A stretch of DNA of 54,769 nucleotides. Origin: Candidatus Zymogenus saltonus. Its GTDB lineage: Bacteria; Desulfobacterota; Zymogenia; Zymogenales; Zymogenaceae. The stretch is from contig JAFGIX010000007.1 in assembly GCA_016929395.1 (NCBI GenBank), forward strand, positions 1-54,769. The letters run 5' to 3'. Positions 4,710 to 22,291 of the stretch are shown here, piece after piece. The position numbers and the translations under genes are program-made. Each line of letters begins with the position of its first letter. Position 1 is the stretch's first letter. The notes below the pieces were generated by a model that saw nothing but the letters and a program-made list of their open reading frames with translations, did not search any database and was not told where the DNA came from.

Positions 4710-4802
4710 CCAGTTGCCGGGTGAGCCGGAAGAAGTTGAGTTCCCGGATAAATAATCCTTCATACCTGAATGTATTTTATCAAATCAAGGGGTGAAAGGA
4801 AA

Positions 4803-5107: not shown

Positions 5108-5124
5108 TGGCAAAAATTTTGCAT
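5108..5124 (+). promoter_or_regulatory. Sigma-54 promoter (-24/-12)
   Basis: TGGCAAAAATTTTGCAT: the -24 GG (5109-5110) and -12 GC (5121-5122) are separated by exactly 10 bases, and TGGCA and TTGCA both match the consensus. It lies 82 bases before the ATG at 5206. The NtrC-family activator encoded at 11911-13317 is the obvious candidate partner. Confidence 0.7.
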
Positions 5125-5205
5125 ATGTAATAGAAGATGGATGCTTTTAAAATCCTTGAACTGACAACCTTTTTTAAAAGGTTTAGAAAATTGAGGAGAA
5201 ATAAA

Positions 5206-6306
5206 ATGAAAAAACTGATTAAGAAAAGGATGCTTCTTTTCTTCATGCTTTTCGTCTTCCTGACGGCAATCACTGTAACTACGGCCGTTATAGCGCAGGA
5301 TGCAACGGATCCGGGTACGTCGACGGGAACGACCGATGTTGCGGATTCTACCGGTACGACGGATACCACGGACTCCAACGACATAACGGAAGATACTTCT
5401 AAAGACGTGAACTGGAACAACGCGCAGCTTGAGAAGGCGGAAAACCTCGCAGAGGCGGCGGTGTCTCCCGTGGATGAGGCTCAGTCAGATCTAGATGAAG
5501 CCAACAGCGCATTGGCAGCGGCCGAGGAGAATCTTGCGGCGGTGAGTGCGGATCCCAATTCTACACCGGAGGCTATCGCTGCCGCTGAGGATGCGGTGAA
5601 CAGCGCAAAGACGGACGTTGAGACCGCCACGGCCGCGGTGGAAGAGGCCCAGGCAAACAAGGATGCGGCGGAAGCGGCGCTTTCAGACCTTGAAGAGGCA
5701 AAGGCCGCTGTTGTTGCGGCGGAGGAAGCCCTGGCGGCTTTACAAACTGATCCGAATGCCGCACCGGAAGATATTGCCGCGGCGGAGGCGGCTCTGAGCG
5801 ATGCCAAGGCGAACCTCGCAGATGCGGAGACTACGGCCGATGAAGCCGTGGCGAAAGTGGGCGCCGTAAGTGTAGATACGATCAAGGGGATGCGCGAGGA
5901 TGGACTGGGATGGGGGGTGATTTGCCATGAACTCGGAATTCATCCGAGCGCCCTCGGCCTCAGGAAGGGACAGGATAAAGAGGGTTTTATGGCCAAAACC
6001 ATGGGAAAGGTTAAGGCCGGTTTCGTAAACACGGTAAGAAATACGGTAAAGGCCGTAAAGGAGAATAAGTCGACGATCTACGGCCAGTCAAAGAAGGACA
6101 GCAACAAAACGGATGTAGCGAATTCAAACAACGCAAACAAGGGAAAGAACGCAAACAGTAACAACAGTAATAGCAGTAACAACGGCAACAACGGCAACGG
6201 CAACGGCGGCGGCAACGGCGGCGGAAACGGGGGCGGAAACGGCGGCGGAAACGGAGGCGGCAACGGCGGCGGCAACGGCGGCGGAAACGGAGGCGGACAT
6301 AAATAG
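5206..6306 (+). CDS. Secreted Ala-rich coiled-coil protein with (GGGN)n tail
   Basis: I place the start at ATG 5206, because a GAGGAG site lies just upstream and the resulting 366-residue protein begins with a good signal peptide (Lys-rich start, hydrophobic to about residue 30, cleavage near AQD). A Thr/Asp-rich linker follows. Then comes an Ala/Glu-rich helical region (about 60-215) with two related units, seen in the pair DPNSTPEAIAAAEDAV and DPNAAPEDIAAAEAAL. A small conserved-looking module around 'DGLGWGVICHELGIHPSALGL' (about 225-245) follows, and finally an Asn/Ser/Gly tail ending in eight GGGN-type repeats and HK. Probably extracellular or periplasmic; function unknown. A sigma-54 promoter precedes it and a terminator follows. 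Confidence 0.85.
   Translation: MKKLIKKRMLLFFMLFVFLTAITVTTAVIAQDATDPGTSTGTTDVADSTGTTDTTDSNDITEDTSKDVNWNNAQLEKAENLAEAAVSPVDEAQSDLDEANSALAAAEENLAAVSADPNSTPEAIAAAEDAVNSAKTDVETATAAVEEAQANKDAAEAALSDLEEAKAAVVAAEEALAALQTDPNAAPEDIAAAEAALSDAKANLADAETTADEAVAKVGAVSVDTIKGMREDGLGWGVICHELGIHPSALGLRKGQDKEGFMAKTMGKVKAGFVNTVRNTVKAVKENKSTIYGQSKKDSNKTDVANSNNANKGKNANSNNSNSSNNGNNGNGNGGGNGGGNGGGNGGGNGGGNGGGNGGGNGGGHK
6202..6297 (+). repeat. GGGN-coding tandem repeat
   Basis: A 12-base unit (aac ggc ggc ggc, with gga/ggg third-base variants) repeated about eight times, encoding the Gly-Gly-Gly-Asn tail of the secreted protein. The synonymous variation between units means the protein repeat is older than a recent slippage event. 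Confidence 0.85.
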
Positions 6307-6353
6307 AACTCCTTTCTGAAACAGGCAAAGAATATATTGCTTCAATCTTATAT

Positions 6354-6390
6354 GGCCCATTGTTTACATCGAAATAATGGGCCTTTTTTT
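6354..6390 (+). terminator. Intrinsic terminator
   Basis: Perfect 8-bp stem GGCCCATT (6354-6361) with AATGGGCC (6376-6383), a 14-base loop, and seven Ts directly after. It ends the transcript of the secreted GGGN protein. Confidence 0.85.
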
Positions 6391-6572
6391 GAGTTTTTTT
6401 GGTGATATCCTTTAATCACATATTGATTGAATCATGATTGACGAAGCTTAAAGCAATTAGCTGGAAAAATCTCCGGGATTGTGGTAAAAAAGATATTAAC
6501 AGCAAATTGGTAAACAAAAGATCGGTCGGGGGTGGATTATTGATGGAGTTTGACAAATAAAGGAGACAATTG

Positions 6573-7397
6573 ATGGTAACTCGAAGAGATAAAGGGGCTA
6601 AGGTTAAAAAGAAAAGCATCGGAACAACCCCTGGGCGGATTGTGAGGATTGTTTCTCTCGTGGCGGGATTTGTCCTTCTCGGGACGATATTTCTGATGAT
6701 TGTCATTCCCAGGGAGAGGGGAACCGTAGCGCCGCCTGCAGGGGATTTTTCTGCCAAAGACGGGGCCGCCGAAAAGATTAAGGAGAACGAGACGAAGGAA
6801 GCTCCAGAGACGGATGACGACAACACGGTAATCGAAGACAGTGAGGAGCCTGCCGAGTTGGGAGAGGAGGAAGTAGATGCGGACAAGGATGTGGTGGGGG
6901 AGGAGAAGGGAATACCCGATTTTTCCGGGGTCTACACGGGAACCGGTGAAAGCGAAACCGCCGACTCAAAGACGGTGTGGGAGGTTTCGATGGAGCTTTC
7001 CGGAGACAGCTATGTATACATAGAGGGTAAGGTCAATCACGTAGAGGACACTGTAAAAGGGACCGGCAGTGGGATGGAATTTACTATTTCGGAAAACAGT
7101 GTTGAGCTGAAGATCTCCGCTACGGACAAAGACGATATCTTGATTTCGAGTAGATTCGATAAGAACACGGTCAATATCTTTTCGCTCAACGAGCAGAGGC
7201 AGTTTTTCCTTTACGTCACTCCAAAGAAGGTAAATATCAATACGGTTTTATTGCGCGAAAAACTGCCGTCCGTAAAGGAACACACGCCGTTGATTGATAT
7301 GTCAGGTTTTATGAAAGAGGACGGAGATGTTGTGGGGATGTTGCGTTCTCCGTTCGTACCGATGGTGGAATACAGTTTAGAGCTCGTTGGTGATTGA
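6573..7397 (+). CDS. Membrane-anchored protein of unknown function
   Basis: A 274-residue protein, starting at ATG 6573 because AGGAG at 6561-6565 is well spaced from it (a TTG one codon earlier is also open). It has a basic cytoplasmic N-terminus and one transmembrane helix at about residues 25-48. An acidic low-complexity linker (about 60-108, rich in Glu/Asp) follows, then a beta-rich extracytoplasmic domain beginning at 'DFSGVYTGTGES'. No cysteines or known catalytic motif are visible. Its gene stops 68 bases before the PotD-like lipoprotein gene on the same strand, so it may belong to the same sensing unit. I do not recognise the family. Confidence 0.75.
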   Translation: MVTRRDKGAKVKKKSIGTTPGRIVRIVSLVAGFVLLGTIFLMIVIPRERGTVAPPAGDFSAKDGAAEKIKENETKEAPETDDDNTVIEDSEEPAELGEEEVDADKDVVGEEKGIPDFSGVYTGTGESETADSKTVWEVSMELSGDSYVYIEGKVNHVEDTVKGTGSGMEFTISENSVELKISATDKDDILISSRFDKNTVNIFSLNEQRQFFLYVTPKKVNINTVLLREKLPSVKEHTPLIDMSGFMKEDGDVVGMLRSPFVPMVEYSLELVGD

Positions 7398-7465
7398 TAC
7401 TATTGCCAATTATCTGGGCGAGATGATGTTTAAGCCGGGAGAGGCTCATATAAAGGAGGGAAGAA

Positions 7466-8560
7466 ATGGGGTTCAGAGATTTATATCGAAAAACAGGAAA
7501 ATTGCTTCCAATGGTTGTCGTTGCTCTGTTGTTGTGTGTCTCCGTCCTCTTTTGGGGATGCGCAAAAGAGGAGCCCGCCGAAAATAAAAAACTGCCCGAC
7601 AAAATAACGATTCTGAACTGGGAAGAATATATGGAAATGGATGTGGTGAAGGAGTTCGAAAAGGAGTATAATATAAAAGTTGAATTTGTATATTACGTCA
7701 ATGAACACGAAATGATAAGCATCATTCAATCAGACCCGGGAAACTATGACCTTGCCGTTGCCAGCGGAAGTATTGTCGAGACGATGATCAACCTGAAGCT
7801 CTTGGAGAGGATTGACAAAAATAATATACCCAATCTATCCAAAGTAGATAAAAAATTTAGAATCCCCCCGTTTGACAAAAACCTCGATTACTCCATTCCT
7901 TATCTATGGGGAACTTCCGGCCTAGCCGTGAACAGGAAATATGTAAAGGATGAAGATATAGGATGGGAGATCCTCTTTGACAAGAGGTTCAAGGGCAAAA
8001 TAGATATTCTGGATGATATTCAGGAGATTTTCGCTCCTCCATTGAAGATATTGGGCGTTTCCATAAACACCGAAGACGAACGGTCTTTAGAGGCGGCGAA
8101 GGCATTGCTGGTTGAGCAGAAGGGGATAATCAGGGGTTATTTTGACACCATTGAGATAATGAAGCATCTCGAAGACGGTACCACATACGTGGCTTACCTC
8201 TACAGCGGTGATACTTATACGGCAAAAGACAAGAACGAGTATTTGGATTATATAGTTCCGGATGATGGGGCCCCCATGTGGATCGACAACTTTGTCATCC
8301 CGACAAACTCAAAAAACAAGTACGCGGCCGAGTTGTTCATAAATTATGTCCTTAAGCCGAAGAACATCGCAAGGATATCGAACTATCTCTGGTATGCAAA
8401 TGCCGTGCCCGAATCGAAGAGATTCCTGAACGAAGAGCTTCTAAATACGGAAAACATCTATCTCACGGATGAAGTCCTGAAAAGATGTGAGTACTACAAG
8501 CCCCTTATGGGCAAAAGAAACATATTTATGAACAGGGTATGGGCAGAACTCACAAGATAA
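7466..8560 (+). CDS. PotD-like polyamine-binding lipoprotein
   Basis: A 364-residue substrate-binding protein of the spermidine/putrescine type. The N-terminal signal ends in a lipobox (LFWGC, Cys at residue 29), so it should be anchored to a membrane facing the periplasm. It aligns by eye with E. coli PotD along its length: LNWEEY (Trp52, Tyr55), 'DYSIPYLWG' and 'WIDNFVIP' (Trp272, Asp274), with Glu187 at the position of PotD Glu171. Those positions contact polyamine in PotD and are kept. No ABC permease or ATPase gene lies nearby. Its 3' end overlaps the histidine kinase gene by 22 bases, suggesting a sensory rather than transport role. A strong AAGGAGGG site precedes the start. Confidence 0.88.
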   Translation: MGFRDLYRKTGKLLPMVVVALLLCVSVLFWGCAKEEPAENKKLPDKITILNWEEYMEMDVVKEFEKEYNIKVEFVYYVNEHEMISIIQSDPGNYDLAVASGSIVETMINLKLLERIDKNNIPNLSKVDKKFRIPPFDKNLDYSIPYLWGTSGLAVNRKYVKDEDIGWEILFDKRFKGKIDILDDIQEIFAPPLKILGVSINTEDERSLEAAKALLVEQKGIIRGYFDTIEIMKHLEDGTTYVAYLYSGDTYTAKDKNEYLDYIVPDDGAPMWIDNFVIPTNSKNKYAAELFINYVLKPKNIARISNYLWYANAVPESKRFLNEELLNTENIYLTDEVLKRCEYYKPLMGKRNIFMNRVWAELTR

Positions 8561-11500
8561 AAAGGGGGAGATCACTAAAGAACGACATCTTCCTCTTTAT
8601 GGTGTTTATCGCCATATTGCCGATGGCGATTTATCTCTACCTCGATATATTCATCACAAGGGAGAAATACAAGGCGGAGATAGACGAGTTCCTCTTTTTG
8701 TCTTCCGATCACGTTGCGGAAGAGCTCAACAGGATGTTCGTCGATCGATACAACGATCTGATGATCCTTGCCAATAATCCAATCATCAAATCAGCGAAGT
8801 ACACCAACGAAGAAAAAATAGCCGAGATGCAGAAGGTACAGGATCTGTACCACTACTTCGATGATATTTCTTATGTGGACTCGTCCGGGACCATTACCCT
8901 CTCAACCACATACAATTACTTCTACGATATCGACAAGACGATCTGGTTCAAAGATGCGATGAAAGGGAAACCGGTGATAACTTCTCCATATCTGATTTCC
9001 ATGGGAAATCGAATGGTCATGAGTTTTTTTCAGCCGGTGTTTAGTAAGGACAATGTGGTGGGCGTCTTGACGGCGAGAATGGATATGAAAAAGGTTTGGG
9101 ATATAACCAATGCGGATACGCTGAAGTGGAATGATTACGGATATATAATTGTGCTGGATAATTTCCTGAAGATCGTCTCACACCCCAATAAAGAGACGCT
9201 ATATAAAAAGCTTAAGGGCATTGATTTAGAAAAGGTTCTTGACAAGAAAAATGAGAGGAAGGTCATAGGGTTTTTGGATGATTCGGGGATGGAGTTTGTG
9301 GCCGGAGTGAATGTACTTGATACAATACCGGGGGTTGTATCGAGTCCCTATTTTGTATTAGCCGTTCAGGCAAAGGATGAAGCCTACGCCCTGTCAAATT
9401 ATATGATAATCAGGGACCTCCTGCAGCTTACCGCCATGGCTTCCCTTATTATTCTAATAAGCCTCTATTTTTCAAACAGATTGACGCGTCCCATTGAAGA
9501 AATAATCGAGGGGACGAAGAGCATCTCGGAGTGGAAACTCGGAAAGACCGTTGATATAAAGAGCTGGGAGGAAATAAACGACATAGCCCGGGCTTTTAAC
9601 AGTATGAGCCTCGCCTTGAAAGATAACACCGAGAGACTCGTTCAATCGGAGAGAAGATACAGGACGCTGGTGGAGGATATCGATGACGGATACTTTATAC
9701 TTGAAGATAAAAAAATAATATATTACAACGAGGCCGCCGCAAGGATTACAGGCTACGACAATGAAGAGGCCCTGGGTAAGAACATAACCGATTTTTACCC
9801 CGAGGAAATGAGGCCTTTAATAGAAGAAAAGTATCAGGAAGTTTTCAAAGAGTCGGGACCGGGAGATGCCAAAAAATTTGAGATGCCTTTTTACAGAAAG
9901 AATGGGGAGCAGATATTTGTAGAATTCAGACCAAAGCTGATTTCGAGCGTAAAGGATAGGATCGTAGCAGGGATAATGGTCGATATCTCCGCCAGGAAGA
10001 GGCGGGAGATGATCGAGAAGGAGTATCAAAAAACTCTCAAAAGGGAGGTGATGCTGAAAACCAAGGAGCTTTCCGAATCCGAAACGAAATATCGGACCCT
10101 GTTTGAAAACATGGATCAGGCGATATTTGTGGTTCAGGATGGATTGGTGACATTTTTTAACCCAAGTGCTCTGGAATTGACCGAATACTCAGAGGAGGAA
10201 CTCAAAGACAAGCCTTTCCTCGATCTTGTTCACCCCGAGGATCGGGATTTGATGGTCGACAGATACATAAAGCTCTACAGGGGTGAAAGCCTTACTTACC
10301 CTTATATCTTTAGAATGGCTGATAAAGGGGGAAAGATGATCTGGGTTGAGGGCATGGGAGTGACGATAAAGTGGGAGGATACAAGGGCGGACCTGGCCTT
10401 TATTAATAACGTTACCGAGAGGATATTGGCGGAAAGAGCCCTTAGAGAATCGGAGGAGAAATACAGAAATCTCTTTGAGACGTCCAAGGATGTCATTTAT
10501 ATATCTACCATTGAAGGCAGACTTATAGATATGAATCCGATTGCGGAGGAATTTTTTGGATACACGAGAGACGAGCTTCTTGCCCTGGACACAAGAGACC
10601 TGTATATAAATTCCGAAGAGAGAGAGAGATTTCAGAGGGATATTGAGAAAAATGGTTTTGTAAGGAACTACGAGCTGACGCTGAAGAGGAGTGACGGGGC
10701 GATTTTGGACTGCATTGAAACGTCGACGGTGTTAAGGGATGACGACGGAAACATCACCGGTTATCATGGGACGATTAAGGATATTACAGAGCGTAAAAAA
10801 ATGGAGACCTTGATCTTGAATTCCAGGAACCGCCTCATGACGGCCTTTGACGCCGTTTCAGACCGTATGTTCATAGTAGACGAAGACTATCGGATGAAGT
10901 TTATCAACAGGAAGATCTGTGAAGAGCTGGCATCAGGATTCGATATGCTACTGAATACAAAGTGTTATCTGCAATTCAATACGAAGGACGAACCCTGCCC
11001 GGAGTGTCCGCTCCAGAGGAGCATCGAGTATAAGGAGGGGACAAGCGGTGAAGTATTCATCGGCGGTAATGGTGAGGGTAGTTGTTTTTTCGTATCCGTC
11101 TATCCAATTGAATCGGAAGAGGGTGATTACGACTACCTGATTTATTCGAGGGATATTACAGAGGAGAAGAGATTCTCGGAGAGGTTGATACAACAGGACC
11201 GGCTGGTTTCTCTCGGCCAGCTCTCCGCCGGGGTTGCCCACGAGATAAACAACCCGCTGACGGCGATTTTAGGATACGCGCAACTGTTGCTGAAAGATGT
11301 AGATAAAGAGAGAAGGGAATATAAAGACCTCAAGATAATTGAGGAGCAGGCCTTAAACTGCAAGACCATTCTTGAAGAGATGCTTATCTTTTCGAGATCA
11401 AGGGTGGATAAGAGAGAGTACTTCTTATTCAAAGATATACTCCACAACGTGATAGTACTAAATAAGAAGGAGCTGAAAGAGAAGAACATCAATCTGATAA

Positions 11501-11880
11501 AGAAAATCAAAAATGATCTCCCCACCTTTTATGGAGATCAGATAAAGATGACCCAGGTGTTTTTAAACGTACTTCAAAACTCGATTTACGCTGTTGAGAA
11601 CGGAGGAGAGATTATAATCGAGACATCATGGGATAAAGAGAACAATATGGTTTTGGTAACGTTTATGGACAACGGTCCGGGAGTGCCCGAGGAAAACAAG
11701 AGAAGGATATTCGACCCTTTTTTTACCACAAAACCGGCGGGACAGGGAACAGGTCTCGGGCTTTCTGTAAGCTACGGAATTGTAAACGAGCATGGGGGAG
11801 GGATAGCCATAGAAAATGCCCCCGGGGGAGGGGCGAAATTTATCATTGCACTTCCAGTCGAGGAGGAACTCCCCGACTAG
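8539..11880 (+). CDS. Hybrid-input sensor histidine kinase (dCache-HAMP-4xPAS)
   Basis: A 1,113-residue membrane kinase. Domains in order: TM1 (about 17-38); a periplasmic dCache-type sensor (about 40-300, with 'YVDSSGTITLST' and 'TIWFKDAMKGK'); TM2 (about 300-320); HAMP; four PAS domains (about 370-490, 510-635, 640-755, 757-880); HisKA with the H-box 'GVAHEINNPL' (His901); and an ATPase domain with N, G1 (DNGPGV) and G2 (GTGLGLS) boxes. PAS4 carries a CPECPL cysteine pair. No receiver domain is fused. The start overlaps the PotD-like gene by 22 bases, implying translational coupling and a physical partnership. Its cognate regulator should be the NtrC-type protein 30 bases downstream. The architecture resembles PilS/ZraS-like sigma-54 systems, with a much larger input module. 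Confidence 0.93.
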   Translation: MGRTHKIKRGRSLKNDIFLFMVFIAILPMAIYLYLDIFITREKYKAEIDEFLFLSSDHVAEELNRMFVDRYNDLMILANNPIIKSAKYTNEEKIAEMQKVQDLYHYFDDISYVDSSGTITLSTTYNYFYDIDKTIWFKDAMKGKPVITSPYLISMGNRMVMSFFQPVFSKDNVVGVLTARMDMKKVWDITNADTLKWNDYGYIIVLDNFLKIVSHPNKETLYKKLKGIDLEKVLDKKNERKVIGFLDDSGMEFVAGVNVLDTIPGVVSSPYFVLAVQAKDEAYALSNYMIIRDLLQLTAMASLIILISLYFSNRLTRPIEEIIEGTKSISEWKLGKTVDIKSWEEINDIARAFNSMSLALKDNTERLVQSERRYRTLVEDIDDGYFILEDKKIIYYNEAAARITGYDNEEALGKNITDFYPEEMRPLIEEKYQEVFKESGPGDAKKFEMPFYRKNGEQIFVEFRPKLISSVKDRIVAGIMVDISARKRREMIEKEYQKTLKREVMLKTKELSESETKYRTLFENMDQAIFVVQDGLVTFFNPSALELTEYSEEELKDKPFLDLVHPEDRDLMVDRYIKLYRGESLTYPYIFRMADKGGKMIWVEGMGVTIKWEDTRADLAFINNVTERILAERALRESEEKYRNLFETSKDVIYISTIEGRLIDMNPIAEEFFGYTRDELLALDTRDLYINSEERERFQRDIEKNGFVRNYELTLKRSDGAILDCIETSTVLRDDDGNITGYHGTIKDITERKKMETLILNSRNRLMTAFDAVSDRMFIVDEDYRMKFINRKICEELASGFDMLLNTKCYLQFNTKDEPCPECPLQRSIEYKEGTSGEVFIGGNGEGSCFFVSVYPIESEEGDYDYLIYSRDITEEKRFSERLIQQDRLVSLGQLSAGVAHEINNPLTAILGYAQLLLKDVDKERREYKDLKIIEEQALNCKTILEEMLIFSRSRVDKREYFLFKDILHNVIVLNKKELKEKNINLIKKIKNDLPTFYGDQIKMTQVFLNVLQNSIYAVENGGEIIIETSWDKENNMVLVTFMDNGPGVPEENKRRIFDPFFTTKPAGQGTGLGLSVSYGIVNEHGGGIAIENAPGGGAKFIIALPVEEELPD

Positions 11881-11910: not shown

Positions 11911-13317
11911 ATGTTGAATACTTATCTGGATGAGTCGATATTGGTAGTTGACGACGAAGAGGGCGTTTTGCTGCTCCTTGACAGGATGCTGGAGAGGGAG
12001 GGATACAAAAACGTGTTTCTTGCGGACTCCGCCGAATCCGCCCTTGAGAAGATTTACAAGGAGAACATCACCATTGTCCTGACCGACGTCAGGATGCCCG
12101 GGATGGACGGGATAGAGCTGTTGGAAAAGGTAAAGGTGATCGATCCTTCGATCATAGTTATTATTATAACGGCCCACGGATCTATAGACCTCGCAGTAGA
12201 ATGCATCAAGAAGGGCGCCTACGACCTTATAACCAAGCCCTTCGGTTCCGAGATTGTGACAATGACCATCGAGAAGGCGTTGGAGGAGAGAAGGCTCAAA
12301 GACGAGATTTATGATCTCAGGATGAGCGTGACCAAGAGCGCTGATTTCATGGATTTTGTCGGCGTTTCCGAGCCTATGCAGAGGGTGTATGAAAAGATCA
12401 AGGCCGTGGCGCCCACGGACGCTCCCGTCCTCATAACCGGCGAAAGCGGCACGGGAAAGGAGCTGGCAATAAGGGCCATCCACGAGCTCAGCACGAGAAA
12501 GGATATGCCCCTCGTTTCGGTCAGCTGCCCTAATCTTCCTGAGCAGATGCTCGAGAGCGAGCTGTTTGGTCACGTAAAGGGGGCCTTTACGGATGCTTAC
12601 AGGGACAAAAAGGGGTTGTTTGAAAAGGCGGATAAGGGCACGCTCTTTTTGGACGAGATCGGGGACATCTCGCCCGATGTCCAGGTCAAGCTTTTGAGGG
12701 CCCTCCAGGAGGGGGAGATTCTGCCCCTTGGGAGCGAGAAGGTAAAGAAGCTCGACGTAAGGGTGATCACATCGACTAATAAAGACCTCACCAAAAAGGT
12801 AAATCAGGGTAAGTTTCGCGAGGACCTTTTTTACAGAATAAACGTCATTAATATTTGCATGCCGCCTTTGAGGGAGAGGTCCGAAGATATAAGGAGGCTT
12901 TCAAGCTATTTTCTGGCCATGTACTCCGCCAAGCTTTCCAAGCCGATCAAGGGGATAACGGATGAGGCGCTGGAATACCTGAAGAACAGGGATTGGAACG
13001 GGAATGTGAGGGAATTGATGAACAAGATATACAACGGCGTGGTTTTTGCCAAGGGGGATTTGATCGAGATTTCGGATATTACACCGGAGGACGGCATAGT
13101 CAAAGAGGATCAAAAGAGTCCTGTGGATTTGTCGGGCGAATCTTTCAGGGATTTGAGGGGCAACCTCCTCGATCGCTTCGAGTCCAATTTTGTGAAGGAC
13201 GCACTGAAAAGTGCGGACGGAAATGTCTCAAAGGCCGCCAGGGAGAGCGGTCTCTCCCGCCAGTCGTTTCAGCACCTAATGAGGAAGTACGGTATCAAGT
13301 CAGACGACATTGAATGA
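11911..13317 (+). CDS. NtrC-family sigma-54-dependent response regulator
   Basis: A 468-residue activator. The receiver domain (about 9-120) has the acidic pocket DDE at 14-16, phospho-acceptor Asp59 in 'LTDVRMPG' and the conserved Lys in TKPF. The AAA+ domain (about 145-375) has Walker A GESGTGKE, Walker B 'LFLDEIGD' and the arginine finger region 'FREDLFYRINV'. The sigma-54 contact loop reads GAFTDA rather than the usual GAFTGA. A Fis-type helix-turn-helix ends the protein ('NVSKAARESGLSRQSFQ'). It lies directly after the kinase and before a terminator and a sigma-54 promoter for minor pilins. I infer that it drives 13564 and perhaps 5108. Confidence 0.93.
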   Translation: MLNTYLDESILVVDDEEGVLLLLDRMLEREGYKNVFLADSAESALEKIYKENITIVLTDVRMPGMDGIELLEKVKVIDPSIIVIIITAHGSIDLAVECIKKGAYDLITKPFGSEIVTMTIEKALEERRLKDEIYDLRMSVTKSADFMDFVGVSEPMQRVYEKIKAVAPTDAPVLITGESGTGKELAIRAIHELSTRKDMPLVSVSCPNLPEQMLESELFGHVKGAFTDAYRDKKGLFEKADKGTLFLDEIGDISPDVQVKLLRALQEGEILPLGSEKVKKLDVRVITSTNKDLTKKVNQGKFREDLFYRINVINICMPPLRERSEDIRRLSSYFLAMYSAKLSKPIKGITDEALEYLKNRDWNGNVRELMNKIYNGVVFAKGDLIEISDITPEDGIVKEDQKSPVDLSGESFRDLRGNLLDRFESNFVKDALKSADGNVSKAARESGLSRQSFQHLMRKYGIKSDDIE

Positions 13318-13563: not shown

Positions 13564-13580
13564 TGGCATAGTCTTTGCAT
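13564..13580 (+). promoter_or_regulatory. Sigma-54 promoter of the minor-pilin operon
   Basis: TGGCATAGTCTTTGCAT: GG at 13565-13566 and GC at 13577-13578 are separated by exactly 10 bases, with TGGCA and TTGCA boxes. It lies 49 bases before the first pilin ATG and just downstream of an NtrC-family gene, the arrangement known from PilR-controlled pilin genes. Confidence 0.85.
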
Positions 13581-13628: not shown

Positions 13629-14084
13629 ATGATGAAAAGAATAGTGAGAGAAGGCGGTTTTACCTTGTTGGAATTGTTGGTTGTCGTTTCGATCATCGCA
13701 ATATCCACATCGATTGCGGTGCCTACATTCATAAGCTGGGCGCCCAAGTTCAGGCTCAACTCAGCGGCGGACAACCTCGAGAAGAACCTGATGCTTGCGA
13801 GAATCAGCGCCATATCGCAAAACTCCAATGTCATTGTCAACTTCTTTGAGTCGCAGAGGAAGTACACGGTTACATACAAGGATAAGACCGAGATAATCGA
13901 ACTGCCTGAGGGGACACATTTCAGCGGAATAGGAACAAGTACTTTGACTTTTAACAAAATCGGCCAGGCGGATTCGAACATGGAGATAAAAATTTATTCC
14001 GATTCGAACAAGCTGACCGACAAGAAGAGGAAGATAACCGTAAGGGCCGTAACGGGAATAGCAAGAGTTTCAAGGGGGTGGTGA
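13629..14084 (+). CDS. GspH/FimT-type pseudopilin
   Basis: A 151-residue minor pilin. The prepilin leader is short and basic and is cut before Phe in 'GG|FTLLELLVVVSII' (after residue 10), with the conserved Glu at +5. The hydrophobic helix (about 11-33) is followed by 'FRLNSAADNLEKNLMLARISAI', typical of GspH/FimT/FimU proteins, which serve in the tip complex of type II secretion or type IV pili. Translation starts at one of two adjacent ATGs after AGGGG. It is the first gene of a four-gene operon behind the sigma-54 promoter at 13564. The major pilin and assembly ATPase genes are not in this window. Confidence 0.9.
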   Translation: MMKRIVREGGFTLLELLVVVSIIAISTSIAVPTFISWAPKFRLNSAADNLEKNLMLARISAISQNSNVIVNFFESQRKYTVTYKDKTEIIELPEGTHFSGIGTSTLTFNKIGQADSNMEIKIYSDSNKLTDKKRKITVRAVTGIARVSRGW

Positions 14085-14085: not shown

Positions 14086-14496
14086 ATGATTACGAAAATG
14101 AGAAGGCTTATGAGACCTTTAAGATTCGATTGCGGATCGGAAAGGGGTTTTTCCATCCTCGAAAACATGATCTCGATGGCTATCTTTTCGGTGGGGATCC
14201 TCTCGATCTCCATGCTGTTCACCCAGACCATGACCTTCACCCACAACAGCGAGAAGATGAGCGTGGCCACGAACCTCGCCAAGGGCAAGCTCGAGGAGTT
14301 GAGAAACACCCCCTATGCCAATATAGTTCCGGGAACCGACAGCGAGACCGTGGACAATGTGAAGTTCGATCTCGAATGGACAGTCACAAATGACTCGCCG
14401 GTGAAAGGTGTAAGAAAGGTCGTCATGGAGATATCTTGGACCGATTTAAGAAAGGACCATACCATAGAGTTCGAGACGCTGTTCTCGAGATTTTAG
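14086..14496 (+). CDS. PilV/GspI-type minor pilin
   Basis: A 136-residue minor pilin with a longer leader (about 20 residues, Arg-rich) cut before Phe in 'RG|FSILENMISMAIFSVGIL'. Glu at +5 is present. The segment 'TNLAKGKLEELRNTPY' after the helix is characteristic of PilV/GspI-type proteins. The start lies 1 base after the preceding stop, with AAGGGGG as ribosome-binding site. In known systems this class joins PilW/GspJ and PilX/GspK in the complex that primes pilus assembly at the tip. Confidence 0.88.
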   Translation: MITKMRRLMRPLRFDCGSERGFSILENMISMAIFSVGILSISMLFTQTMTFTHNSEKMSVATNLAKGKLEELRNTPYANIVPGTDSETVDNVKFDLEWTVTNDSPVKGVRKVVMEISWTDLRKDHTIEFETLFSRF

Positions 14497-14505: not shown

Positions 14506-17500
14506 ATGAAGAAGTTAAAAGAGAGAAAAGGTTTTACGCTGGTTGAGATAATGGTCGCCCTCTTAATTGCGGCGATATTGATTGCCGCCATATACGAGGT
14601 GTTTCTCTCCGATTATAAGGCGTTTATTTCCCACAACCTCATCCTGGATACGCACCAGGAGGAGAAGATGGCCCTGGAGTTCATGACGAGGGAGATCCAG
14701 CTTATCGGGTATGACGCGCAGACCTCTCCGATTACGGCGGATATAATTACGGCCAAGGAGGACATGATACAGTTTGAGGAGTACAACACCTTGAACTTGA
14801 CAAGGGCGAAGATCCTCTACGAATACAAGCCGGCGGACGATAAGGTAATCAGGCGGATGAACCTTTATGATGCGTCTGCCTCAAGCTGGATCCCTGGAAC
14901 TGATGAGACTATTATAGAGAATGTAAGCACATTTAGGATAACGTATTACTCCGGTGATAACGTAAAGATTGATTTTGATCCATCTTCCGGTGAGATAACC
15001 GCGGCCGATCTTCCCAATGTGAGGAGAATGGATTTAAAACTGAAGGTCAAAACGGCAAAGAAGGATCCTATCAGGAGGAAATTTCTCACAAGGGACCTTT
15101 CCACCAGCATTTATATAAGGAATCTCGGGATCGACGTGAACCTATTGGATACGAACCCCCCCGATCCACCGACTAATGTAAAGGTTTCAGATCCCCACAG
15201 ATGCGGTGAGCTGGCCTTAACTTGGGATAAAAACACGGAGGGAGACCTTGCGGGATACATTATCTACTTCCACGTTGAGAGCAGAACCGTATCGCCGTAC
15301 ACACAAAAGGTCATAATAAACAGCCCGGATGCAGAGTCTTATACCCTGACAGGGCTGGACATAGCTCCGTCAAACGATCCCGACTCGATCATGTACTACG
15401 TAGCGATGTCGGCCTTTGACCGCTCGATGAATATAAGCGAGTATTCGACCGAGGTAAGCGGGGACGGCGATGTGGACGAAAATGACACGATTCCTAATCC
15501 GAACAAGCCCACGCCGCCGGAGAATTTCATCGGCGAGGATTCCGGCGAAGGGGGCGTAAAACTAACATGGAGCCCCTCCACGGATAAAGATATAGTCGGA
15601 TACAGGATATACAGAAGCTCGACCCCGATAACCACTTTCCCCCTAAGCGCCGGCTATAATCCGGACGATCTTATCGGGCTTGTCCTTGTGGCCGACGAGG
15701 GATCGACGCCCACGATCCTCGACAGCGCCAAGTCGGAATTCACCGATACGGGACTTGTCGGATGCAGGAAATACTACTACGCCATAACCGCCGTCAACTG
15801 TGACCTCACTCTTATTTCCAACGACGCCGGCGATGACGACACCAAGAGATACACGTCATCAGACTACAGGCTGACCAGCGGAGACGGGCTGAGCGGACCG
15901 GAAACCGATACCCCGACCGGCTCGGACACAACCCCCGGAGACACAATTCCCATCGATCACGATCCCTACCCGGTGCCGGAGCTGACCTCCAAGGCTGGGT
16001 GGAAGAGGGTCTTTCTGAGCCTCACCAATCCGAACAGGTCCGACGATCCGGATTTCAAGGAGACAAAGGTCTACTTCAGCACCACCGGATACCCGACCAT
16101 AGATGGAGATGGGAACGTTTCCGGAGGTACGCTCATTCCTGACGGCGGGGGGGTCTTTGCGCAGGAGGGGTCCGTCCCCCCGATCATCTTCGATTCGGAA
16201 GTGGATGAAACGCCCCTGATCCCGGAGCTGGAGGTCAACGGGACATACTATTTTCTGGCGGTCTCCTTTGACCTCTGCGGCAACCCGAGCGACGCCACCG
16301 ATGTTGCAATAACCCTGTCCGAGCTCTGCGGCGACGACCCCGACTATGCGGGCGCGCCCCCCGTCCCGAACGGCCTCACGTCGGAGGGGTGTTATTCATA
16401 TGCGCGTCTCAGCTGGAATCACCAGGGAATTACGATTGTGGATCTCGCCGGTTACCACGTATACAGAAGCGTAGGTAATACCTTCAATCTCTCCTCAAGC
16501 ACCGAGCTTACCGGTGGCGCGCCCCAGTGGTTCAACTACTACATGGATGCGAGCGTCGTGGAGGGAGGCACGTATTCGTACGGGATAAGGGCGACCGACT
16601 GTTACTATGAAAACATCTTACCATCGGATCCGGACTACGCCACTGCCAAGGCAAACAACATATCAGCGCCGGCGGTCCTTGAGGGGATAAAGCCCGGAAG
16701 GGTCAAGACCGATAGTGAAGTCACCTATGCGCTGACCGGCGATATTACGCTGACAACGCCTACTTTTTATCACAACTCCGTTACATACTACATCGAGAAT
16801 ACGAGCGCGGGGCCGATTGAGCTTACCGAGCTGGAAATGGAATGGACGAACGGTTATTCGTATCTCAGCGAGGTCTACATCGGGAGCGACGATGCCGCAA
16901 GCAATACGCCCCTGGAGCTTATTTGGTCCGGGAAGAAGACATCCACGGCAAATATGAGTTTCAGCAAGGTGCTCTACGACTACGGCTCGACCGCCTCGGG
17001 CTCGATAGCCATCCCCGTGACTCTCGTATTTACCGATGCCAACGGCGACGTGGATAAGACGATAAATATGAGGGAGGATGCCCTGGTCTTCAGCTTCACC
17101 TACATCAATAAGTCTATGCCGACCGTAAAATCTTGCAGCTATGATGGCTTCAAGAATATCCCCCTGGGGCCGACGATAGAAAACGTGACGCAGAATAAGC
17201 CCGGCGTGGCGACTCCGGCCTGGGTGGTTCCCGGGGATGAAGGGCTCAATCCTTCTGGAGAGCTGGTTGAGCCGGGCGGAGTAAGCCTATCTGTCAGCGC
17301 CAACGTTTACGACAACTCCCTCGCTGGTATAAAAAGCGTGGACCTATACTACTTCGTTGACAGCCTGAATATTTACGATGAGACGACCGGTCCCCCGCCC
17401 TTTGTCTTCGGCGACGCCACGTATACAAAGGTGGCGATGGTGAACGTAGCCGGAAGCCTTTACAGGACATCAACCAATATACCCAACAACGATGATTGTA

Positions 17501-18657
17501 CTATATGGTTCTTCATCCTTGCGATGGACAACAACGGAAATTTCGACAGGGGACCGGAGATCGGCTCCGGCTTCTTCAACTACTATCAGCAGGAAGGGGA
17601 CGTATGTAACAACGTTCCAAATCCGCCCACTAATCTGGTTGGGACGATTAGCGCCGGTCTTGACTCCATAGATCTTTCCTGGGATGCGCCGACCGAAAAC
17701 ACCGACGGATCGGCAATCGGTGTCGATCTCAAGGGATACAACGTATTCAGAAGCGTAAGCGGCGGCGAGTGGGAACAGATAAACAGCGATGCAGTCGTAG
17801 ACCTGTACTACACCGATGCGGGTATTACGGATCTCGCCGCGGAAGAGTATTCCTACTACGTAACCGCTCTCGACTTCTGTGAGCCGACTCCAAACTCCAG
17901 CGAGGCCTCAAGCATCTATTCCGAGTGTGAAGGCGCCGCCGTTTGCTCCATCTATGTAAACGTTACCGAGATTAACGCGGGCGATGCTTTTCGGCCGAAC
18001 GTAAAGGTATGTGAGAAGGCGCTGGGCGGCATCAACGACATGGGAGCCGGGGAGATAATCTACATACAGGTATGCTCCACGGCGGGGGACGCGGACCCGA
18101 TCAAGATGAAGGAAGACGGAAACACGGGTGTTTTCTACATCGATGAGAGCTCCTACGGAGGGAGGGATTACATCAAGGTCTACCGCATAAGCGACTACCC
18201 CAGCTCTCCAACTAACCTCGATCTGTACGTGAACAACAGCGATACAATAACGGTTGGAGGAGCAAGCGACATATCTTATAGCAGCAGCAGCTGTGATGAC
18301 GCCCTCTTCGACTGCTCTGTTGCGATCACCGTTGTTCCGGATCCTTGTGATGATGTGCCGAACGCGCCTACGGGGCTCTCTATGTCAACCCTCGGTCAAA
18401 ATAGTGTGACATTGGTCTGGACCGCCCCGACGAAGAATACGGACGGAAGCACCCTGACCGACCTTGTAGGCTACAGAATATACAGAAACTACGACAGCCA
18501 CGGATTCGTGTTGCATGCGATTGTGGGGAACGTTACCACCTGGTCGGAGACGGTCAGCGGAAAGCTGAAAGATCACACCTACGAATACTACATCAAGGCG
18601 ATAGACAGCTGTGATCCGGCAAACGAGGGCGCAGGATCAAACCACGTGAGCAACTAA
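14506..18657 (+). CDS. Giant PilW-type minor pilin with fibronectin-III-like domains
   Basis: A 1,383-residue protein. The start is ATG 14506 (AGGGG six bases upstream; a TTG two codons earlier is also open). Residues 8-30 are a prepilin signal and helix, 'KG|FTLVEIMVALLIAAI', with Glu at +5. Up to about 210 it resembles PilW/GspJ ('EKMALEFMTREIQLIGYDA'). The rest is a modular beta-rich extension. FN3-like domains with the 'L-W--------GY-IYRS' pattern lie at about 217-310, 335-435, 620-715, 1040-1140 and 1285-1383, with a more divergent one at 490-600 and other beta domains at about 748-870, 925-1025 and 1146-1265. About 18 cysteines lie in the extension, suggesting disulfides outside the cell. 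PilW proteins are usually a few hundred residues. I infer a pilus-tip adhesin. Confidence 0.9.
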   Translation: MKKLKERKGFTLVEIMVALLIAAILIAAIYEVFLSDYKAFISHNLILDTHQEEKMALEFMTREIQLIGYDAQTSPITADIITAKEDMIQFEEYNTLNLTRAKILYEYKPADDKVIRRMNLYDASASSWIPGTDETIIENVSTFRITYYSGDNVKIDFDPSSGEITAADLPNVRRMDLKLKVKTAKKDPIRRKFLTRDLSTSIYIRNLGIDVNLLDTNPPDPPTNVKVSDPHRCGELALTWDKNTEGDLAGYIIYFHVESRTVSPYTQKVIINSPDAESYTLTGLDIAPSNDPDSIMYYVAMSAFDRSMNISEYSTEVSGDGDVDENDTIPNPNKPTPPENFIGEDSGEGGVKLTWSPSTDKDIVGYRIYRSSTPITTFPLSAGYNPDDLIGLVLVADEGSTPTILDSAKSEFTDTGLVGCRKYYYAITAVNCDLTLISNDAGDDDTKRYTSSDYRLTSGDGLSGPETDTPTGSDTTPGDTIPIDHDPYPVPELTSKAGWKRVFLSLTNPNRSDDPDFKETKVYFSTTGYPTIDGDGNVSGGTLIPDGGGVFAQEGSVPPIIFDSEVDETPLIPELEVNGTYYFLAVSFDLCGNPSDATDVAITLSELCGDDPDYAGAPPVPNGLTSEGCYSYARLSWNHQGITIVDLAGYHVYRSVGNTFNLSSSTELTGGAPQWFNYYMDASVVEGGTYSYGIRATDCYYENILPSDPDYATAKANNISAPAVLEGIKPGRVKTDSEVTYALTGDITLTTPTFYHNSVTYYIENTSAGPIELTELEMEWTNGYSYLSEVYIGSDDAASNTPLELIWSGKKTSTANMSFSKVLYDYGSTASGSIAIPVTLVFTDANGDVDKTINMREDALVFSFTYINKSMPTVKSCSYDGFKNIPLGPTIENVTQNKPGVATPAWVVPGDEGLNPSGELVEPGGVSLSVSANVYDNSLAGIKSVDLYYFVDSLNIYDETTGPPPFVFGDATYTKVAMVNVAGSLYRTSTNIPNNDDCTIWFFILAMDNNGNFDRGPEIGSGFFNYYQQEGDVCNNVPNPPTNLVGTISAGLDSIDLSWDAPTENTDGSAIGVDLKGYNVFRSVSGGEWEQINSDAVVDLYYTDAGITDLAAEEYSYYVTALDFCEPTPNSSEASSIYSECEGAAVCSIYVNVTEINAGDAFRPNVKVCEKALGGINDMGAGEIIYIQVCSTAGDADPIKMKEDGNTGVFYIDESSYGGRDYIKVYRISDYPSSPTNLDLYVNNSDTITVGGASDISYSSSSCDDALFDCSVAITVVPDPCDDVPNAPTGLSMSTLGQNSVTLVWTAPTKNTDGSTLTDLVGYRIYRNYDSHGFVLHAIVGNVTTWSETVSGKLKDHTYEYYIKAIDSCDPANEGAGSNHVSN

Positions 18658-18683
18658 AAGATTCGAGGTATAGGGTGATTACA

Positions 18684-20021
18684 ATGAAGAGGCTATTGAA
18701 TAAAATAAAAGGCGACGAGTCGGGCCTGACGCTGATAGTCGTGATGATGTTTCTCTTCCTCCTGACTATACTCGGGATGACCATGTACTTTATGTCGTCT
18801 ACTGACCTTAACATCAGCAGGAACGTGTTCAGGGGGGCAAGGTCTTTTTACGCCGCCGAGGCGGGGGTAAGCGAGGCGATAGCAAGGCTAAACCTCTCCG
18901 CATCGGACCCCAAATACGACGCCGCGATGTACGATTCCGCCCCCTTTGACATAAACTGGTCATACGATCTTTCGACAGCACCGCAGTTTAAGGGGAAGCT
19001 CGATAACGGCGATTCATATGAGGTTAACATCAAGCACAAAACGATCGATGACGACGATGACCCCACAACGCCCGACGTTGTGGTGACATACGACAAAGGA
19101 TACTTCCCGTCCATCACCTATCCCGCGGCGGGGGAGGGATATGCCGTGGAGGTTATAACGTCAAAGGGCCGCTCCTCGGACGGAGAGACGGTGGTGGTCC
19201 TCGAGATATCCAAGATACCCATGGACATCAAGGTGGAAGGGGCGATAACCGCAAACTCTGAAGTTAATGTGATAGGAAACTTCTGTGCGGACGGACGCGA
19301 CCACGATATGGAGGGAAACCTGGGGGGGGCCGGGAACGATACGGCTGGGGTAAGAACCACGTCAGGAAACAGTATCACATTGCAAGGATCGGCCGATGTC
19401 TATGGAACTCCTCCAACCGACAACACCCTCGATCCGAACACATACCCCAACTCCCCCGAGGAGGTGTTGGGCCTCACGGGAGCGAGCGCTTCCGACTATC
19501 TCGATCCGGCAAACTGTGACTACTACGGCCCCTATGACGGCTCGATCGGGATGAACAACGGCGATCCCCTTACGGGAATTACCTATATAACGGGCGACTA
19601 CCCCGGCCCGAAGGAGAACGGCAGCGGGATATTAATTATCCACAATCCGAACTTCAACCCCTGCAAGTACGAGGCGTCAACGTCCGTGGACAACACACAC
19701 CCCTGCTGGGACACGGCCTGGGAGAATCCGGCCGACCCTCACTATTATCTCGGCGCCAATCCTTACCATTCAGACTCAACGGTACAGCCGGCGAAATTGG
19801 GCAATTACACCTCGAACGCGACTTTCAAGGGGCTCATCATTGCTGATCTGGTTGACAAAATAGCTGGGACTCCCGTTATCATCGGCGCAATGGTCTCGTT
19901 GTCATCGATCGACATTCAAAAGTACGGCACCGGAAATGCGGATGTACTGTACAGCTCCGAGGCCCTTAACAACTTCGCCTCAATGGGATTTTCCAAGAAA
20001 ATAAGCTGGCATAAGGAGTAG
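18684..20021 (+). CDS. PilX-type minor pilin with large C-terminal domain
   Basis: About 445 residues from ATG 18684 (a GTG at 18675 is also possible). The N-terminus matches PilX_N: 'ESG|LTLIVVMMFLFLLTILGMTMYFMSS' followed by 'ARSFYAAEAGVSEAIARLN'. As usual for this class, and as in GspK, the +5 Glu is absent. The long C-terminal domain (about 165-445) starts with 'IKVEGAITANSEVNVIGNF', a beta-helix-like pattern seen in PilX-related proteins of deltaproteobacteria. It contains a pair of cysteines near 'NPCKYEA...HPCWD'. It is last in the pilin operon. PilX/GspK proteins sit at the very tip and start assembly. Confidence 0.85.
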   Translation: MKRLLNKIKGDESGLTLIVVMMFLFLLTILGMTMYFMSSTDLNISRNVFRGARSFYAAEAGVSEAIARLNLSASDPKYDAAMYDSAPFDINWSYDLSTAPQFKGKLDNGDSYEVNIKHKTIDDDDDPTTPDVVVTYDKGYFPSITYPAAGEGYAVEVITSKGRSSDGETVVVLEISKIPMDIKVEGAITANSEVNVIGNFCADGRDHDMEGNLGGAGNDTAGVRTTSGNSITLQGSADVYGTPPTDNTLDPNTYPNSPEEVLGLTGASASDYLDPANCDYYGPYDGSIGMNNGDPLTGITYITGDYPGPKENGSGILIIHNPNFNPCKYEASTSVDNTHPCWDTAWENPADPHYYLGANPYHSDSTVQPAKLGNYTSNATFKGLIIADLVDKIAGTPVIIGAMVSLSSIDIQKYGTGNADVLYSSEALNNFASMGFSKKISWHKE

Positions 20022-20112: not shown

Positions 20113-20526
20113 ATGAAGATATTAGTTGTAGACCACGATACCGCCTTTAGAGAGTATCTCGAGGAAATCCTCTCCTTGTTGGGTCATCGCACGGTTTGCG
20201 TCTCCGATGGCTACGATGCAATAGATTATGTAATGGAGCACAACGTCGACCTCGCATACATCGATATAAATATCCCCGGAATGGACGGCTTTCAGACGTT
20301 CAGGAAGATCAGGGAGATAGATCTCAACGTATCAAGCGTTATGATATTCAAGAATATCGATAAGGAGAAGGTGGGTAAAAGGGATCAAGAAGGCGTGGTC
20401 TTCTTCTTGGAAAAGCCGTTTACGGTATATGAAATTGAGCTGATCGACAACAGCTTCAAGGATGTTTTGCCGATCCAAGAAGATGACATGATAATCGAGG
20501 CGCTATCTCTGGTTGAGAACTTCTGA
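20113..20526 (+). CDS. Stand-alone receiver-domain protein
   Basis: A 137-residue single-domain response regulator with no output domain. The acidic residues Asp7 and Asp9, phospho-acceptor Asp51 ('IDINIPGMDG') and the conserved Lys ('EKPF') are present. The Thr/Ser that normally follows beta-4 is replaced in 'VMIFKN', so the phosphorylation-coupled switch may differ from the standard one. AAGGGGTGGG precedes the ATG. It follows the pilin operon by 90 bases and has its own promoter and terminator. It may accept phosphate from the large kinase or another partner, or act through protein contact like CheY/PilG-type proteins. Confidence 0.88.
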   Translation: MKILVVDHDTAFREYLEEILSLLGHRTVCVSDGYDAIDYVMEHNVDLAYIDINIPGMDGFQTFRKIREIDLNVSSVMIFKNIDKEKVGKRDQEGVVFFLEKPFTVYEIELIDNSFKDVLPIQEDDMIIEALSLVENF

Positions 20527-20632: not shown

Positions 20633-20799
20633 TTGATCGATCCAATCTTGGAAGAACTCTCTGAAAGACGAGCGGCAGCGGTTTTTCAGCCGTTTGCATT
20701 GCAGTTGCTGATACAGGCTTTGCGGAATCGAACTCCGTCCTGCCAAATTTCTTGATCGGTCCAATCCGTGGGAGACTATCTAAAAGTCGATCGGCAGCG
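20633..20799. repeat. Imperfect 48-bp direct repeat at the 3' end of the barrel gene
   Basis: Copy A (20633-20680) and copy B (20752-20799) share roughly four fifths of their bases, including TTGATCG, TCCAATC and CGGCAGCG. Copy B contains the last codons and stop of the outer-membrane protein gene; copy A lies 119 bases beyond, outside the gene. It looks like a partial duplication of the gene end that has decayed. Confidence 0.6.
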
Positions 20800-22291
20800 C
20801 AACTCCGAAGTTCGCCGTCCAATCCGGGTCGTTATTAGCAAATCCTGTTCCTCCCGATGCCGAGACGATTATCTTTTTGTAGAGCATAAACCTGAATCCG
20901 CCCTCGAGGAGGTAGCTGCAAAGTCGATCCGTGTGAAAAGTTTTTCCGTAAAAATTGCCGTAGAGGGAAAGCCAGTCCGTAAGGGCGTACTCGGCCCCGG
21001 CGCCAAAGATCAAGAAGTCTCTTTGGGAGCTCGTCTCTTCGGGATTTCCCTCTATGGAGAAGCCGAGATTCAGATGAACCAAAAACCTGTCCAAGGAGGC
21101 GGACGTCAGAAAGAGCAGTGTGTAGTCCATCTCCTTTTTCCCCAGGCCTTCACTGTCGTTAGTCGAGGGCATCTTGATCTCGTTCAGAACCCCGAATTGG
21201 AACTTGCCCAGGCGCCAGGGGGATATCTTGAAGCCGACCCGGACGTCGCTAAGTCCGTCCGTTCGTCCGTATATGGGGGAGTCTTCAAGGAAGGAGTAGG
21301 GGATTTCCACTTGTACGTCGACTCCCTCGGCTATCCCGTAGCGAAGGTCGAGGCTCGGGGTATAGAGGTTGTAGCGTTTGAAGCCCATAGCCGAGAATTC
21401 GGCCTCAAAATAAAGGCTTCCATGCCCGATCGTGGCGGCTTCCTCTAAATCCAGGGGGAATGGATAGAGGATGACAATCGTGGGATTGCCGCCCGAAGCG
21501 GGTGAGGTGTCCGGGATCAAGCCGTCAAGGCTCCACTCTCTGGAGAAGTGGAGTCCCACAGACCAATCCGGGGTTTCAGAAGTCAAACCGGCGGAGGCGG
21601 TCAGCCCCCACTCCCAGCCGTTGGCTATGGGTGCGACGAAGCCTAAGGTGGCCTTGCACCACTCAAAGTCGTCCCTGCCGCCCGTCGCTCCCGATACGTC
21701 GCCTACAATTGAAAAATGGTCGGAGATCATATATTCAAAGCCGACGCCATAACCGAACAGATAGTGATATTTACGCATCTCGGTAGTATCGCCGATTATG
21801 TGAAGCCCAGCGTTAAAATTCAGAATGAGGCTTTTTAAAGCCAAGGTATAAAGCCCTACGAGGTGAAAATCCTGCACATCCGTTCCCAGGCCGTCTTTAT
21901 CGTTTGCGTTAGGAAGCTTCGTTGAGATCAGAAAGCCGAGGGTGCCCCAATCACCGCTGAAGGGCGAGGCCTTGAGCCCAACGGTGAGGTCGCCGGGGCC
22001 GATCGCGTCGTTAAAATCTGGGCCCTCGCGATAAGTAAGACCCCTATATTTCAAGAACAGGTCGGCGTTTTCCGCGACCCCTAATATCAGATTCAACGAG
22101 GAAAAATGGTAAAGCCTGGTGTTGTCATTCAGATAATCCAAACTACTACTATTGTTTAGTCTCAGGTGCCCCTTTCCGATGGTCTCGGCCCTCTCTGTGG
22201 GGAGAGGATTCATGTCCGCGGCGTAGGCTGTGGATAAAATAACTATCAGCAGAGCCGAAAGGATTACAGTAAATAGCTTCTTCTGAATCAT
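20780..22291 (-). CDS. Outer-membrane beta-barrel protein with two homologous halves
   Basis: A 503-residue exported protein with a signal peptide cut after 'STAYA' (about residue 24). The mature part alternates short polar/hydrophobic strands and ends in Phe ('LPIDF'), the C-terminal signal of barrel proteins inserted by BAM. The two halves are alike. Each begins with 'TIG(K/H)G(H/S)L', has an 'A(E)N/GVD' strand, a 'GDLTVGLKASP' / 'SDVRVGFKISP' strand, 'LPNANDKDGLG' / 'MPSTNDSEGLG', and closes with 'PDW(S/T)'. So it is an internal duplication of a barrel unit of about 235 residues. Function unknown; channel-forming or structural roles are both possible. A 26-bp palindrome lies about 40 bases upstream of the start. 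Confidence 0.85.
   Translation of the reverse strand: MIQKKLFTVILSALLIVILSTAYAADMNPLPTERAETIGKGHLRLNNSSSLDYLNDNTRLYHFSSLNLILGVAENADLFLKYRGLTYREGPDFNDAIGPGDLTVGLKASPFSGDWGTLGFLISTKLPNANDKDGLGTDVQDFHLVGLYTLALKSLILNFNAGLHIIGDTTEMRKYHYLFGYGVGFEYMISDHFSIVGDVSGATGGRDDFEWCKATLGFVAPIANGWEWGLTASAGLTSETPDWSVGLHFSREWSLDGLIPDTSPASGGNPTIVILYPFPLDLEEAATIGHGSLYFEAEFSAMGFKRYNLYTPSLDLRYGIAEGVDVQVEIPYSFLEDSPIYGRTDGLSDVRVGFKISPWRLGKFQFGVLNEIKMPSTNDSEGLGKKEMDYTLLFLTSASLDRFLVHLNLGFSIEGNPEETSSQRDFLIFGAGAEYALTDWLSLYGNFYGKTFHTDRLCSYLLEGGFRFMLYKKIIVSASGGTGFANNDPDWTANFGVALPIDF

Follow-up and report, generated by a model that had tools for sequence, protein, structure and literature searches.

What is a protein of 1,383 residues doing in the PilW slot of a minor-pilin operon? 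The gene lies in the genome of Candidatus Zymogenus saltonus (here G000; 3.76 Mb in total), on contig 7 of 92, and this whole stretch of 54,769 nucleotides is the window that we analysed. A first-pass annotation had read the product as a PilW-type pilin extended by fibronectin type III (FN3)-like domains. We call it PilW-FN3, and its nine beta modules M1 to M9. In our judgment PilW-FN3 rather likely serves the tip complex of a type IVa pilus as its J-type (PilW) subunit and carries a fused beta stalk of about nine modules, five of which are FN3.

The open reading frame (ORF) is intact, running from an ATG at 14506 through 1,383 codons to a stop that ends at 18657. It divides as follows:

14506 to 18657, plus strand: PilW-type modular minor pilin with FN3 modules, 1,383 residues (ORF, Pfam, orthologues, module profiles)
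14506 to 15141, plus strand: pilin module, residues 1-212, with cleavage motif RKG/FTLVE including Glu5, alpha-1 and beta sheet (N_methyl; model)
15151 to 15486, plus strand: FN3 module M1, residues 216-327 (Pfam fn3 singly; module profiles)
15502 to 15840, plus strand: FN3 module M2, residues 333-445 (Pfam fn3 singly; module profiles)
15955 to 16332, plus strand: beta module M3, residues 484-609, possibly a divergent FN3 (35% probability against M9)
16333 to 16710, plus strand: FN3 module M4, residues 610-735 (96-97% probability against M2, M7 and M9; missed by Pfam alone)
16711 to 17151, plus strand: beta module M5, residues 736-882 (module division)
17152 to 17604, plus strand: beta module M6, residues 883-1033 (module division)
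17605 to 17931, plus strand: FN3 module M7, residues 1034-1142 (Pfam fn3 singly; module profiles; PDB)
17932 to 18342, plus strand: beta module M8, residues 1143-1279, cysteine-rich (module division)
18343 to 18654, plus strand: FN3 module M9, residues 1280-1383, C-terminal (Pfam fn3 singly; module profiles; PDB)

The N terminus carries the class III signal peptide of type IV pilins, a short hydrophilic leader closed by Gly and followed by a hydrophobic helix (..RKG/FTLVE, with Glu5), and Pfam N_methyl matches residues 6-30 over its cut-off (8.4e-8). PF16074, the PilW domain, was not reported in the Pfam scan of the protein. A profile made from PilW-FN3 finds the PilW genes of the phylum, and the slot between pilV and pilX fits PilW.

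Against the whole protein, Pfam fn3 scored 1.5e-17 over three stretches, over its cut-off. M1, M2, M7 and M9 also match it singly (E 0.011 to 3e-5), each alone below the curated cut-off. We then compared the modules profile to profile with hhalign, using five orthologues per module. M1, M2, M4, M7 and M9 form one family (best pairs at 94.8-99.8% probability), M3 is borderline, and M5, M6 and M8 are unrelated to that family. A profile of M7 and M9 retrieves the FN3 domains of titin, gp130 and chitinase A1 (ChiA1) from the PDB; against solved structures the M3 profile gave nothing better than 0.06 and the M5 profile nothing significant. AlphaFold2 was run on residues 1-740 and 606-1383 with alignments of two sequences only. 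It returned a pilin-like N terminus of modest confidence, with a predicted local distance difference test score (pLDDT) of about 60-70 over parts of the helix and sheet, and a mean pLDDT of about 31, mostly 20-40 over the FN3 modules. Because these models are unusable beyond the pilin module, the evidence for the FN3 fold comes from sequence profiles only.

PilW-FN3 has 19 cysteines, of which 14 are invariant across the five orthologues. M4, M7 and M9 each have a cysteine near the module start and another that ends the F-strand motif (629/699, 1034/1125 and 1281/1369), which suggests one disulphide per module; the stalk is probably disulphide-stabilised. The first-pass annotation had placed a PilW-like start in about 210 residues, followed by at least five FN3-like units and other beta modules. 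Domain search and profiles agree, giving a pilin module of about 212 residues, five FN3 modules and four others. Its count of about 18 cysteines needs correcting to 19.

Could this architecture be an artefact, produced by misassembly or by an accidental joining of a pilin gene to an FN3 gene that has nothing to do with it? We looked among the Zymogenaceae relatives of G000 (G001, G002 and G003; Zymogenaceae is family f1) and in a survey of 297 Desulfobacterota genomes. Full-length orthologues are encoded by G002 (61% identity) and G003 (59%); the G001 copy lies at the start of a contig and covers the C-terminal 208 residues only. The only further full-length matches in the survey are in two genomes of family f58, G118 (E 1.6e-189) and G196 (E 4.3e-185), at about 35% identity and with the gene order unchanged. 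Orthologues in two families exclude an accidental fusion, to which we give practically no chance; the misassembled contig that the first-pass annotation had named as a danger is not what is seen.

Conservation is uneven along the protein. When f1 is compared with f58, identity is 39-48% over residues 301-700 and 22-27% over the pilin module; over residues 701-900 and 1101-1200 it is about as low as in the pilin module, at 26-28%. The stronger conservation of several beta modules relative to the pilin module, together with the 14 invariant cysteines, favours a specific function over a generic spacer.

What kind of machine does the operon build? The genes and sites around PilW-FN3 are these:

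7466 to 8560, plus strand: PotD/PotF-like periplasmic substrate-binding protein (NCBIfam PotD 2.4e-45, below the equivalog cut-off)
8539 to 11880, plus strand: PAS/dCache sensor histidine kinase (Pfam)
11911 to 13317, plus strand: NtrC-family sigma-54-dependent response regulator (NCBIfam NtrC/AtoC-type matches)
13564 to 13579, plus strand: sigma-54 (-24/-12) promoter-like site TGGCATAGTCTTTGCA (1 mismatch to TGGCACN5TTGCW)
13629 to 14084, plus strand: FimT/FimU/GspH-type minor pilin, 151 residues (N_methyl 4.4e-6, weak GspH; ComGD/GspH NCBIfam below cut-off)
14086 to 14496, plus strand: PilV-type minor pilin, 136 residues (TIGR02523 PilV 1.5e-9, below cut-off)
18675 to 20021, plus strand: PilX-type minor pilin, 448 residues (PilX_N 1.3e-9)

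The order fimT/gspH-pilV-pilW-pilX, downstream of the histidine kinase and NtrC-type regulator, is that of a PilHIJK-type tip-complex operon, with H, I and J assigned from weak family matches together with gene order. The PilX start, DESG/LTLIVV, lacks the Glu5 that the sequences of the other three operon pilins have, as would be expected of a tip-capping K subunit. A tip complex of four minor pilins has been described (PMC10191384, PMC7541494, PMC13190605), and both the operon content and a PilX without Glu5 agree with it. PilX is 448 residues long here and 146-182 in three PilY1 operons of the phylum.

With the prepilin motif set aside, the first pilin is matched best in NCBIfam by ComGD/GspH and PilW-FN3 by ComGF, in every case below cut-off; such matches would fit a type II secretion or competence pseudopilus in place of an adhesive type IVa pilus. 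We consider such a pseudopilus very improbable: the operon has PilX_N and PilV matches, G000 has adjacent PilB, PilT and PilC genes together with major-pilin-like genes, and the f58 operon (in G196) has pilM, pilN and a pilQ-type secretin gene as its downstream neighbours. The G118 operon has a gene for a prepilin peptidase upstream of its kinase gene.

The sigma-54 site sits about 50 bp upstream of the first pilin gene. Similar sites, with both core dinucleotides and 1-2 mismatches, occur upstream of 5/5 orthologous operons. Across the whole window the motif is found 13 times against 13.2 expected, as by chance; support for the site is its position and its recurrence at orthologous operons, not the window-wide count. 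The f58 counterpart of the regulator has Response_reg, Sigma54_activat and HTH_8 domains. The PotD-like gene and the kinase gene overlap by 22 nucleotides, and the orthologue locus in G002 (L051) has the same overlap and regulator arrangement. The overlap of 7466-8560 with the dCache kinase gene at 8539-11880 suggests polyamine-type sensing upstream of the pilin operon. Beyond pilX we saw, by eye, a receiver-like (CheY-type) gene in three Zymogenaceae genomes (window 20113-20526, L047 2042-2854, L043 11092-11490). At window 20780-22291, on the minus strand, is a 503-residue protein with weak outer-membrane beta-barrel matches, whose halves resemble a tandem duplication by eye.

In diderms, PilY1 counts as a standard component in the priming and adhesion of type IVa pili. 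No pilY1 was found after the PilX-type gene at 18675-20021, as the first-pass annotation had said of this operon. Is PilY1 encoded elsewhere? A PF05567 search matched nothing in the control genomes and was re-tested on the relatives, on the 297 phylum genomes and with a phylum-specific profile built from nine PilY1 proteins of the phylum. PF05567 found no PilY1 in G000 to G003, as against 158/297 phylum genomes. The phylum-specific profile gave strong matches in G022, G053, G118 and G196; in Zymogenaceae it met only isolated PQQ-repeat-like stretches in other ORFs, mostly of about 25-60 residues (best E 8e-4).

The Zymogenaceae carry a second giant. G000, G002 and G003 each have another operon, ordered regulator-fimT/gspH-pilV-pilX-pilW, with a PilX of 760-805 residues and a PilW of 1,680-1,708; its sigma-54 site is present in 2/3 genomes. 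In G000 (L041, G000:C86:28000-45000) the ORFs at 3859-8979 and 9012-11429, minus strand, encode a 1,706-residue PilW with 26 cysteines and an 805-residue PilX. This PilW has a Big_1-like region, below cut-off. We call such proteins immunoglobulin (Ig)-type, from Big_1/Big_2 matches in three giants and, for the remainder, from a shared PilW clade. The Ig-type giant was not found in G001. This genome is split into 550 contigs at 88% completeness and holds even the FN3 copy only as a fragment, so that absence of the giant there is not established. Each Zymogenaceae genome has two pilX genes (one was found in fragmented G001). All lie in giant-pilW operons, so each minor-pilin set found in the family has a giant PilW. 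Ig-type giants of 1,534-2,103 residues also occur in families f21, f45 and f88, where the phylum-specific PilY1 profile gave nothing below E 0.9.

Several observations on the giants stand apart. In G003 both giant-pilW operons lie on one contig (L043, G003:C38:1-20000), the giant genes about 8 kb apart, which suggests that they arose by tandem operon duplication. L045 7328-13117 (G023) encodes a PilW-type pilin of 1,929 residues that has Big_2 and, close to its C terminus, two H-type lectin stretches; the PilX before it has the ending YWPPYVPSIYSVERASW common to other Ig-type giant operons. L072 (G284) and L078 (G175), from families f88 and f21, each hold two giant PilW genes within about 7 kb. 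L049 1532-4651, minus strand (G018), encodes a 1,039-residue pilin in which Pfam sees N_methyl only; that genome has a weak PilY1 match, and the PilW tree was built without this protein.

Perhaps, then, PilW-FN3 itself has taken over the function of PilY1 in Zymogenaceae, as the first-pass annotation had supposed? None of the four genomes of the family has PilY1, and the operon has the layout of the G022 PilY1 operon minus pilY1. Giant pilW and pilY1 were never found adjacent: pilY1 lies within 12 kb of 0/20 giant pilW genes and of at least 59/110 normal ones, a lower bound (p 2e-6). By genome, PilY1 is present in 2/14 with a giant PilW and in 72/94 with normal PilW only (Fisher 1.1e-5); by family the figures are 1/5 and 31/42 (p 0.03). 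These giant and normal counts were taken from search tables, and the statistics ignore phylogeny. However, both PilY1-positive genomes with a giant PilW belong to f58 and have the FN3 type: next to the PilW-FN3 orthologue they carry a separate pilV-pilW-pilX-pilY1 operon with a PilW of 297-300 residues. The families with an Ig-type giant (f1, f21, f45, f88) lack PilY1 in 4/4 cases. Hence it is the Ig-type giant, which three of the Zymogenaceae genomes also have, that PilY1 absence follows, rather than PilW-FN3. In the PilW tree the Ig-type giants form one clade (SH-aLRT 98) and the FN3 type lies on one side of a weak branch (72), so that giant PilW may have as few as two origins; this leaves few independent replicates and a small effective sample for the association. 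We therefore regard replacement by PilW-FN3 itself as unlikely. The predicted tie between the fusion and PilY1 absence stands in Zymogenaceae and fails in f58, where the fusion coexists with PilY1 and a normal PilW; absence of pilY1 from the neighbourhood holds for all 20 giant-pilW loci, of either type. It is more likely that the Ig-type giant PilW holds or shares the PilY1 role in Zymogenaceae than that PilW-FN3 performs it alone.

How might PilW-FN3 work as a J-type subunit? What we say of its tip position, surface exposure, binding and regulation is a proposal. The PotD-like protein and the kinase would relay a signal to the NtrC-type regulator, which would activate the sigma-54 promoter of the pilin operon. 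Prepilin peptidase would process FimT, PilV, PilW-FN3 and PilX, and the four could form a tip complex that primes pilus assembly, with PilX, lacking Glu5, as the cap. The pilus would exit through the secretin with the FN3 string jutting out just below the tip. There the string may contact a partner cell, matrix or surface before PilT retracts the pilus. At this operon, the fusion would stand where other operons have a short PilW together with PilY1.

Several points weigh against this proposal. FN3 domains are often spacers, and no lectin, vWA or other known binding domain was recognised in M1 to M9. The AlphaFold2 models are unusable outside the pilin module, and the f58 genomes keep PilY1 beside the orthologue. 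Published models, moreover, do not put PilW at the very tip but beneath PilV and PilX (PMC13190605). The string might instead be a passive stalk or docking scaffold with no target binding of its own. It would then make the tip longer and anchor a separate adhesin that is secreted, in the way that CofB holds CofJ in enterotoxigenic Escherichia coli (ETEC; PMC8179133). The lack of a known binding domain and the spacer habit of FN3 would suit such a scaffold, and the enlarged PilX of the same operon could be the binder. The better conservation of several beta modules than of the pilin module between families argues the other way, and no secreted partner gene was recognised beside PilW-FN3. We think a purely passive stalk rather unlikely, and keep to the J-type subunit whose modules may have a function of their own.

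Beyond this one gene, several Desulfobacterota lineages may have type IVa pili that do without PilY1 and whose tip complexes are built around giant PilW subunits (1,383-2,100 residues, FN3- or Ig-type, one ending in H-type lectin domains), adhesin and pilin having become one protein and PilY1 having been lost. We offer this tentatively, as possible but doubtful; a limited literature search found no report tying giant PilW subunits to PilY1 loss. The Zymogenaceae combine a PilB/PilT pilus with two parallel giant-PilW operons and have no detectable PilY1, and so offer a natural test of the need for PilY1. PilW-FN3 is also a concrete candidate for how these uncultured bacteria attach to partners or surfaces.

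How does PilW-FN3 compare with known systems? For PilC/PilY1 with PilVWX in Pseudomonas, Myxococcus and Neisseria, the operon is of the kind seen here except for its last gene, and the large proteins are of similar size. PilW-FN3, in contrast, has no match to the PF05567 beta-propeller in Pfam and is a pilin, not a non-pilin protein; its modules are grafted on PilW, whereas PilY1 sits on PilX. CofB of ETEC, like PilW-FN3, is a minor pilin of large size to which beta domains have been added, and is predicted to sit at the tip. We know of no FN3 match in CofB. It belongs to a T4b pilus, forms a trimer and has two added domains (PMC8179133). PilB and PilC of Streptococcus sanguinis are modular minor pilins that bear adhesive domains (PMC8179133, PMC10191384). 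Theirs are vWA and lectin-like modules in a monoderm host where PilABC replace PilHIJK, whereas PilW-FN3 has an FN3 string and an operon with H-, I-, J- and K-type minor pilins.

The closest likeness is to the modular type IV pilins, over 1,200 proteins in 264 architectures (Raynaud et al. 2021, PMC8179133). In these, domains are grafted on a pilin module, and N_methyl plus FN3 (IPR003961) is among the 15 commonest architectures; PilW-FN3, with N_methyl and fn3 both over cut-off, matches it. By the account of that paper the added module also acts directly in some function of the pilus, a role that is putative for M1 to M9. PilW-FN3 differs from the surveyed proteins in its conserved operon with a sigma-54 site and in a setting of two giant PilW per genome and no PilY1. 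The most extreme case in that paper, by added domains, has 860 residues; with 1,383 residues and nine modules, PilW-FN3 extends the modular-pilin idea to proteins sized like large adhesins. We conclude that PilW-FN3 is an extreme, large and conserved case of the known modular-pilin design, not a new kind of system.

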